Part shown: in pieces, positions 2,257 through 9,099 of the stretch
How positions within the stretch are numbered: the stretch's first letter is position 1
Layout of the letters: each line of letters begins with the position of its first letter
Source of the DNA: an uncultured Clostridia bacterium
GTDB taxonomy: Bacteria; Bacillota; Clostridia; Oscillospirales; Ruminococcaceae
Assembly (NCBI GenBank): GCA_947631535.1
Contig: CANRLU010000002.1
Coordinates: 1 to 63,004 of the forward strand
DNA: 63,004 bases
Direction: 5' to 3'
The notes under the pieces: generated by a model
The model's input: only the letters and a program-made list of their open reading frames with translations
What the model was told of the DNA's origin: nothing
Database searches by the model: none
Position numbers and translations under genes: made by a program

Positions 2257-2635
2257 TTTGCCTCGCTCGCCGCTCGGCAAATGGGGAACCCCTTAATAGG
2301 GTTCCCCACACAAAAACAGTCCACCGGACTGTTTTTGCTTCCCTTCCTGATTTTTGTTTAGTAATAGGATTTCGCAGCCTGCAATGCGGCGCCGAAAAGT
2401 GATATGAAGGTAACGCAGTCACGCCGCATCTGTCGTTCGCTTCGCTCTCGACCCAAATGCCCTGCGCCTCGACTCTCGCCAGCCGAGATATGCGATTATT
2501 TCTCCGCAAGCACGAGCGGGCGGAGCCATATATGCCCGCGAAGTGTGAGCGGCAAGAAATAACGCCTATCTTTTTGAAAAAGGCTCGACCGAAAACTTTT
2601 AAGTTATTTTTGCTCAAACAGAATACTTTCTGCAC
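2257..2635 (+). repeat. structured intergenic repeat, copy A (plus orientation)
   Basis: This 379-base block fills most of the gene-free stretch 2145-2685. It begins TTTGCCTCGCTCG and ends ACTTTCTGCAC. It holds two perfect tandem hairpins: a 10-bp stem (2282-2291 with 2299-2308) around loop CTTAATA, and a 12-bp stem (2311-2322 with 2326-2337) around loop ACC. Then follow a shared block ending GGATTTCGCAGCCTGC, a middle part not shared with copy B, and a shared tail GACCGAAAACTTTTA. The same blocks in the same order occur inverted at 8844-9099. A short open frame crosses it, but the hairpins and partner copy suggest a non-coding element. Confidence 0.8.
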
Positions 2636-8843: not shown

Positions 8844-9099
8844 GTGCAGAGAAAAACAAGTGCTTTTGAGGAGGAGCGGTGAATTTTGAACAGAAAGCAT
8901 AAAAGTTTTCGGTCCACCCTTTCTCAAAAGGGTGGCGACGAGTCCAGAGGCGAGAAGCCTCTGGTCGCAGCCCGCAGGCTGCGAAATCCTTATACAAATA
9001 AGAATCAGGAGGGTAGCCCGAATCCGTCCGGTGGACGGTTCGGGCGTAGGGGACCCTATTAAGGGGGCCCCTGATTTGCCGAGCGATGAGTGAGGCAAA
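8844..9099 (-). repeat. structured intergenic repeat, copy B (minus orientation)
   Basis: A 256-base inverted partner of the element at 2257-2635; it explains most of the gene-free stretch 8796-9283. Read on the minus strand it begins TTTGCCTCACTCATCGCTCGG and carries five tandem hairpins. In plus coordinates these are 9048-9072 (loop TATTAAG, one mismatch), 9016-9045 (13 bp, one bulge, loop GGT), 8967-8982, 8944-8964 (8 bp, loop GAGAA) and 8914-8935 (9 bp, loop CTCA). It ends with the shared GACCGAAAACTTTTA and TCTGCAC blocks. The rest of the gap (9100-9231) is GC-rich and shows nothing I can name. Confidence 0.8.

Follow-up and report, generated by a model that had tools for sequence, protein, structure and literature searches.

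A stretch of 63,004 nucleotides from an uncultured Clostridia bacterium (hereafter the window) carries two related, hairpin-rich sequences on opposite strands. Their presence raises the questions of whether the fold is maintained by selection and of how such a sequence has spread.

Two copies of a modular hairpin repeat in the window

Both copies are present as described in the first-pass annotation of the window. Sequence comparison places the conserved limits of copy A at 2257–2601 on the plus strand and those of copy B at 8900–9099 on the minus strand, with about 6–7 further AAGTTTT-like bases kept at the 3′ end beyond these limits. The annotated ends at 2635 (copy A) and 8844 (copy B) proved too wide, because the motif TCTGCAC, which had been counted as a shared part of the element, lies downstream of both window copies and is not conserved in other copies; its match between the two is probably a coincidence. 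The named hairpins are real, namely S, L (loop CTTAATA) and H (core GTCC-ACC-GGAC), and the reported change in the outer stem of H, from CAAAAACA/TGTTTTTG in copy A to GCCCGAA/TTCGGGC in copy B, was confirmed with the addition of one unpaired A in the latter. The order common to both copies is S, L, H, a linker, J, K and E with the tail ACCGAAAACTTTTA.

Copy B is the short form. On the minus strand it consists of S (9075–9099), L (9048–9072, with the loop triplet AAT at 9058–9060), H (9016–9045), the linker TCCTG-ATT (9003–9010, with ATT at 9003–9005 as the partner of the loop triplet), J (8966–8983), K (8944–8964) and E (8914–8935), which together with the 3′ tail (8900–8913) occupies 8900–8935. 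These assignments rest on sequence and covariation for S and H, on covariation for J and K, and on covariation and comparison of 3′ ends for E. Copy A carries two extra hairpins, M and Q, and is longer because these replace most of J–K and split the 5′ arm of E, as judged by eye. Its plus-strand parts are S (TTTGCC...GGCAAA, 2257–2281; S covaries in 19 short copies), L (2282–2308, loop (C)TTAATA) and H (2311–2337), both supported by sequence and covariation, and the linker TCCTG-ATT (2345–2352), in which ATT (2350–2352) is complementary to the loop triplet AAT (2295–2297) identified by the complementarity count described below. There follow the 5′ part of J (CGCAGCCTGC, 2373–2382), interrupted by module M (AATGCGGCG...CGCCGCAT, 2383–2429, by eye), the imperfect hairpin Q within the 5′ arm of E (2487–2570, by eye), and the remainder of E with the tail ACCGAAAACTTTTA (2571–2601), which forms the constant 3′ end of the element. 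Module M occurs in long copies at several differing junctions (by eye). A bidirectional terminator-like hairpin, AAAAAAGCGCCCCGTGGGGCGCTTTTTTT, lies at 2636–2664 of the window, 34 bases past copy A, and a second copy of this hairpin was not seen to the left of copy A.

Both copies fold more stably than shuffled sequences: the folding energy of copy B with six tail bases (z = −8.3) was reached by 0 of 200 shuffles and that of copy A with seven tail bases (z = −5.6) by 0 of 100.

A dispersed repeat family in Clostridia

The genome that contains the window as its contig C2 (G000; 2.09 Mb in 145 contigs, 95% complete) has many more copies. BLAST returned 65 matches with copy A and 52 with copy B, these being pieces of which some copies yield more than one, so that the case raised in the first-pass annotation as fatal to a structured element, a genome with these two copies only, does not apply. 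In 59 stretches of G000 together with the window we found 67 distinct E ends, a few of which represent a second, tandem end within a single copy and one of which (L053-1314) is a chance match, and 42 copies running from S to E (45 before two false pairings and one over-long pairing were dropped). The 3′ end of the G000 copies is sharp and the 5′ end lies mostly at or near S. The core measures approximately 165–210 bp and comprises L, H, J, K and E in that order, often with S in front, to which optional hairpin modules are added. At least six G000 contigs end in or at repeat copies.

Beyond G000, the covariance model R1 matched 29 of 119 genomes of the family (28 of 118 genera) and 19 of 117 genomes of the order, the latter from eight families of one order; up to 20 candidates per genome were scored, and copy numbers per genome are therefore at least those counted. 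A pattern scan of named genomes gave at least 80 loci. Among the 80 listed, 76 have Clostridia-type titles, many of them metagenome-assembled genomes of rabbit, ruminant and chicken gut together with one isolate, MH27-2, and the other four are chance matches elsewhere. R1 matched 69 of the 76 Clostridia-type loci listed, the remaining seven including tandem repeats beside tRNA genes that have the H hairpin only. These tandem repeats (L136, 4860–5270; L140, 1660–2010; L192, 5200–5740) have a period of about 163–185 bp and share the H hairpin CAGTCCACCGGACTG with the repeat family, and each of their units repeats the 3′ end of the tRNA and/or a terminator-like hairpin (by eye). A search with copy B of 72,556 records of plasmids and 50,697 of phages returned no match, and a plasmid or phage vehicle was rejected; in viral_contigs the pattern had one exact match. 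A full-text search of one literature collection yielded no description of this repeat family in the text it covers. The repeat is a dispersed non-coding family that keeps its fold while its letters change, and it resides in genomes of Oscillospiraceae-type Clostridia.

Stem covariation and a loop–linker pseudoknot

Covariation was assessed in two alignments. In the first (A1; 19 short G000 copies, 51 predicted pairs), 97.5% of cells pair and both partners have changed in 19 of the 51 pairs. None of 500 shuffles, in which kinship is not modelled, reached the observed covariation score, the share of paired cells or either of two double-change counts, and slid controls brought the paired share down to 31–55%. 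A fifth measure, the number of further pair types, went in the opposite direction (30 observed, shuffled mean 34, with 499 of 500 shuffles equal or higher). The second alignment (A2), which is fitted to R1, comprises the 113 matches of that model outside G000, where 80 of 87 loci contained at least one; here double changes occur in 49 of 51 pairs, any of the five measures was reached by 0 of 500 shuffles that likewise ignore the kinship of the sequences, and slid controls lay much lower than the observed pairing. Absence of covariation across more copies had been named beforehand as a reason to give up the structured element, and both alignments do show covariation, which leaves the structured-element idea unrefuted. 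The stem covariation claimed from the two window copies is real beyond shuffles, but part of it, within one genome, reflects a swap of ready-made blocks and not stepwise compensation.

The claim that selection acts on structure, and not on a peptide, draws its support from a pseudoknot of three base pairs with compensatory changes. In this pseudoknot a triplet in the L loop (NNN in the loop xyNNNA) pairs with the triplet that follows TCCTG in the linker, 3′ of H. With extraction rules that are blind to pairing, and that were written after a cruder first count (89 of 120), the two triplets were exactly complementary in 125 of 134 distinct segments, against a mean of 51 and a maximum of 67 in 2000 permutations. 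This permutation test shows association, which linkage of blocks alone could yield. The stronger point is that seven of the 11 triplet pair types seen are complementary, because a random pair of triplets is complementary once in 64. The complementary types are GCG/CGC (73 segments), AAT/ATT (27), GAT/ATC (10), ACG/CGT (10), CCG/CGG (2), TCG/CGA (2) and GGT/ACC (1). The nine misses comprise two GCG/TCC cases (L006 and L057), apparently misreadings of TCCTGCGC by the pattern; four GCG/CTT cases (L163, L166, L233 and L238); two CAA/ATC cases (L072 and L177), which are one locus counted twice; and one chimera, L029, in which the H stem and the pseudoknot are both disrupted.

A mutual-information scan of 88 A2 rows, aligned to a model that lacks the pseudoknot, recovered the same contact. 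Columns 100–322 gave the top coupling outside the stems (0.74, 95% Watson–Crick), and columns 101–321 (0.52, 94%) and 99–341 (0.32, 89%) came lower in the ranking, below several couplings that are not Watson–Crick, such as 283–379 (0.69, 49%). The fold, pseudoknot included, is kept while its letters change, and the compensatory changes extend across sequences from different genomes, as expected of a selected nucleic-acid structure (kinship not modelled).

Exchange of blocks between copies

Within G000, the alleles of the L stem, the L loop, H and the linker are linked to one another (0–3 of 1000 permutations) and so are those of J and K (0 of 1000). The blocks [L-H-linker], [J-K] and [E] are mutually unlinked (69–838 of 1000), except for the linker and J, with 25 (n = 18–32 for all these tests). 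In one orthologous pair of loci, L048 in G000 and L161 in G221, the flanks are 92–93% identical and stem pairs have been replaced together, and the L–H allele of the G221 locus recurs, apart from one extra base, at another G000 locus, L037. The unlinked blocks and the alleles of these three loci imply that exchange between copies is likely frequent.

Presence and absence at orthologous sites

At the site of copy A, the sequence as read shows no element in G220, G215 or G148 (G148 has other sequence there), and spacing indicates the same for G044, G214 and G219, while G218 has a different repeat copy in the same gap. Copy B is absent from the orthologous site in G221, which contains other GC-rich hairpins instead. 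At the site of L066, G221 lacks the element and the flanks meet within a few bases, the sequence there resembling the element's own 3′ tail; this absence may represent a loss by recombination. The gap at L021/L242 contains a copy in each of the two species, but the two copies point in opposite directions.

Neighbouring genes, taken as simple open reading frames of at least 90 codons with four double rows removed, could be read on both sides of 37 copies, giving 21 co-directional, eight divergent and eight convergent gene pairs. In the 21 co-directional cases the element has the orientation of the genes in 10 and the opposite orientation in 11. A putative open reading frame overlaps the element in 11 of 42 copies, by 10–240 bases.

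A second mosaic family of long palindromes (with GTGGAAGCAAAA) occupies G221 sites at which G000 has the element: 16180–16720 of L261 corresponds to L033, and 17500–17900 of L245 to L057. At the L057 site G221 keeps the 3′ tail of the element with a different body. Elsewhere, G000 contig C71 (L055 and L040) and L264 of G221 appear to differ by an inversion of about 3 kb, and two element copies in inverted orientation are located at its breakpoints in G000.

IS1182-type ends and duplicated hairpins in other genomes

The left and right flanks of individual copies were compared with each other and with cross pairs. A score of at least 14 was obtained for five of nine Lapin-022 bin52 copies (cross pairs 2 of 72) and for nine of 58 other copies (cross pairs 2 of 680), of which only L194, L118 and L160 are hairpin duplications beside IS1182-like ends (by eye). 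Flanking duplications were found in 0 of 21 copies of four other groups (Lapin-012 bin76, 0 of 6; Lapin-025 bin54, 0 of 9; SUG1305, 0 of 4; goat RGIG3116, 0 of 2). The strong cases (Lapin-022, L118, L160 and L194) are hairpins that adjoin imperfect, CAGnnTGTCGAAAAAG-like inverted repeats. Such ends bound 11 distinct core elements, 257–304 bp in length, which come from G225, G226, G002 and a further contig (L198); G225 and G226 fall outside the 31 genomes of the window's genus that were examined, and G002 represents another genus of the family. Their terminal inverted repeats are imperfect and approximately 16 bp long. All 10 core elements with both flanks available show a hairpin duplication in direct copies, with an aligned length of 21–34 bp that in L160 and L306 is shorter than the hairpin. 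Like an intrinsic terminator, a duplicated hairpin often has a T-rich stretch behind it, and 'terminator-like' here denotes a judgement from hairpin shape and from this T-rich stretch, which is present after many of the hairpins. An empty site supports the duplication: the sequences that flank L294 overlap in G228 by 31 bp, which form a single hairpin with no element.

At 257–304 bp, the core elements of G225, G226 and G002 are too short for a transposase gene. Of 148 genomes of the family, 34 contain the IS1182-type end pattern, and in G025 it bounds an element of 1562 bp (645–2206 of contig C5) whose open frame, 482 residues as read to the edge of the locus, matches NF033551 (IS1182 transposase) over the whole profile (389 bits, cut-off 270). 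This element sits between perfect 39-bp hairpin copies. Another IS1182 element (L339) is present in G199, a member of the window's genus, with a hairpin duplication of 39/39, so that the duplication is found in two of two IS1182 elements with both ends; at the IS1182 loci L338 and L340 one end only was found. The CAGnnTGTCGAAAAAG-like ends are common to the 11 core elements and to the IS1182 elements of G025 and G199. When these two elements, the 10 core elements and five further MITEs (L330–L332 and L335, which have no core, and L336, which has part of it by eye) were taken together, all 17 scored 16–39 and none of 272 cross pairs reached 14; this set was selected for both ends being found, and pairs resembling terminal inverted repeats with no duplication were excluded (L333, score 9; a 3.7-kb pair in L336, 6; two core-less pairs, 7 and 5). 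The core-less MITEs L330–L332 (G142; parts of the sequence read N) and L335 (G107) are 119–176 bp long and combine IS1182-type ends with hairpin duplication.

The H core was not found in the fully read autonomous element of G025, and a search for an autonomous element containing the core gave none in the loci searched, all core-bearing pairs of terminal inverted repeats spanning 257–304 bp. Since the autonomous element and some of the MITEs lack the core, it is not needed for movement. The first-pass annotation had recognised no transposase in the window, but the same core elsewhere has IS1182-family ends and a target duplication. The copies of goat RGIG3116 (L146, L231, L124 and L151) have a longer terminal inverted repeat, TCTTCACGGAAAGTTGGGGAAT, of about 20 bp, unlike the IS1182 type, and a possible 8-bp duplication (both by eye; the automatic test gave 0 of 2 copies). 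These ends suggest that mobile ends of more than one type may have captured the core.

RNA or single-stranded DNA

An excess of G.U pairs was considered as a mark of RNA and rejected, since in the stems of the element G.T mismatches are roughly as rare as A.C mismatches (13 against 15 of 963 cells; 90 against 61 of 4273). In the stems of 27 tRNAs from the fetched loci there are 25 G.T against 4 A.C among 560. None of the triplet pairs of the pseudoknot involves G.U pairing. The near-equal rarity speaks against simple RNA-only selection, and the ratio may also have been blurred as old copies decayed neutrally; the data show a kept fold, which may act as RNA or as single-stranded DNA. A known structured RNA family was also rejected: a search of the window against Rfam 15 at gathering score matched only a tRNA, and permissive searches with copy A and six loci gave nothing near gathering score over an element. 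Copies of G225 (L143, L147, L162 and L294) carry the promoter-like stretch TTGGCA-N16-TAAGAT, or one near it, which ends 3 bases 5′ of the L hairpin; it is not conserved in the copies of G226 or G002 (both by eye).

Discussion

Taken from sequence comparisons, the reading we favour, at a probability of roughly two-thirds, is that the repeat is a small non-autonomous, MITE-like mobile DNA whose pseudoknotted core is under selection and which IS1182 transposases move in some genomes. Such a transposase, supplied in trans, would insert the element at a terminator hairpin, and the insertion would duplicate this hairpin, so that the upstream gene keeps its terminator and the element gains one. Copies within one genome would then exchange the blocks [L-H-linker], [J-K] and [E] by recombination. 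As the least secure step, the pseudoknotted core may owe its retention to a role as a folded single-stranded molecule, in the simplest case RNA.

Two other accounts of the fold have to be weighed against this one. Covariation might be a by-product of DNA processes such as template switching or gene conversion, arising with no selection on structure, and G.T pairs that are not enriched over A.C (unlike in tRNA), blocks that assort independently between copies, the joint replacement of stem pairs in L048/L161 and the near-identical G221 allele at L037 all agree with it. The pseudoknot already weakens this explanation: it joins places outside the arms of one hairpin, so that arm-to-arm palindrome correction cannot make it, yet seven triplet pairs are complementary, and in L029, a chimera of the type that exchange would produce, neither the H stem nor the pseudoknot is intact. 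Such a by-product therefore appears quite unlikely. A different account, that the host keeps many copies as a functional RNA gene or as a cis-regulatory RNA (riboswitch, attenuator or terminator) acting for neighbouring genes, is in our estimate very unlikely. A fold and pseudoknot that appear selected across genomes are compatible with it, as is the promoter-like stretch 3 bases before L in several G225 copies, but that stretch is not conserved in G226 and G002, copies show no preferred orientation relative to genes, close relatives differ in copy positions, two species carry opposite orientations in one intergenic gap (L021/L242), and Rfam gave no match at gathering score. An unlikely and more speculative possibility treats the core as an RNA parasite that is transcribed and pseudoknotted. 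As a minimal mobile RNA gene travelling on IS1182-type and other routes, it would form an insulated transcription unit, framed by the duplicated terminator of its target, wherever it inserts, and its RNA fold would be selected for aiding its own spread or for protecting host copies.

How the core moves in the window's own genus is less clear-cut. G000, at 95% completeness, has no match to an IS1182 transposase, whereas four of the 31 genus genomes have one; it shows no excess of the IS1182-type terminal repeat (four matches against six for the reversed control pattern), flanking duplication in 0 of 33 copies, and no outer stem, inverted flank matches not exceeding those of cross pairs (p = 0.12). 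Either the G000 copies took another route, or their ends and duplications have been lost. That the core of this genus moves by a different route, via some other transposase or a reverse-transcribed transcript, with IS1182 ends confined to some other genomes, is a tentative alternative that we hold to be less likely than not. It would account for G000 copies with a sharp 3′ end and a 5′ end mostly near S that nevertheless come with no IS1182 ends, duplication or gene, and it agrees with the different, longer terminal inverted repeat of the goat RGIG3116 copies (by eye). It is at odds with the IS1182 element with a hairpin duplication in G199 (L339) of the same genus, and with the terminator-like hairpin that follows several G000 copies about 23–37 bases past the E end (by eye). 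Truncation at the 5′ end as a sign of retrotransposition is not the rule, most complete copies starting at S, although S is absent from some copies. Movement as an element of the REP/BIME/REPIN type by a Y1 (RAYT, IS200/IS605-like) transposase is hardly credible. The element is small, palindromic, mostly intergenic and high in copy number, and Y1_Tnp is found in eight of the 31 genus genomes, some of them carriers; but Y1_Tnp (PF01797) had no match in the carriers G044, G148, G218, G220 and G221, for which reason this driver was set aside, and G000 has only a short broken Y1 fragment. A broken IS200-type (Y1) remnant lies approximately 400–500 bases from one copy in L059 (G000 contig C30).

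Compared with known systems, the MITE-like element resembles several in part. REP, BIME and REPIN sequences are likewise small dispersed palindromes in mosaic arrays, but the unit of the present family is far longer, its hairpin order is fixed and a Y1 transposase was not detected in several carriers. With IS1182 insertion sequences and their MITEs it shares a terminator-like hairpin as target and, in the same bacterial family, the terminal inverted repeats; a search of one IS1182 element for the pseudoknotted core, in contrast, did not find it. The studied case is IS1272/TnSha1 of staphylococci, IS1272 being a member of the IS1182 family. According to one report, IS1272/TnSha1 target hairpins with little primary-sequence conservation, several of them confirmed terminators, by blunt cutting and partial hairpin deletion with no target duplication (PMC4923244). 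The hairpin is instead duplicated here, in 17 of 17 selected elements. BOX of Streptococcus pneumoniae, compared by description only, is similarly modular, structured, high-copy and non-autonomous with variable modules; in the accessible portion of its description neither a cross-module pseudoknot nor terminator duplication appears, and BOX is described there from streptococci, whereas the present family comes from Clostridia, in eight families of one order (PMC3049150). Yeast mitochondrial GC clusters are also mobile hairpins that merge and shuffle, but they belong to organelle DNA and have a main unit of 42 nt, and a conserved multi-hairpin core is not described in the portion of the source available (PMC4478555).

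It is easy to dismiss small non-coding repeats in gut Clostridia as assembly breakers. This family offers a testable fold with a covariation-supported pseudoknot, a candidate enzyme family in IS1182 and, in some genomes, a target rule, namely a terminator-like hairpin that is duplicated. It raises the questions of how a transposase would recognise a hairpin and cut at both its feet, and of why a MITE would keep a folded core while its autonomous partner has none.
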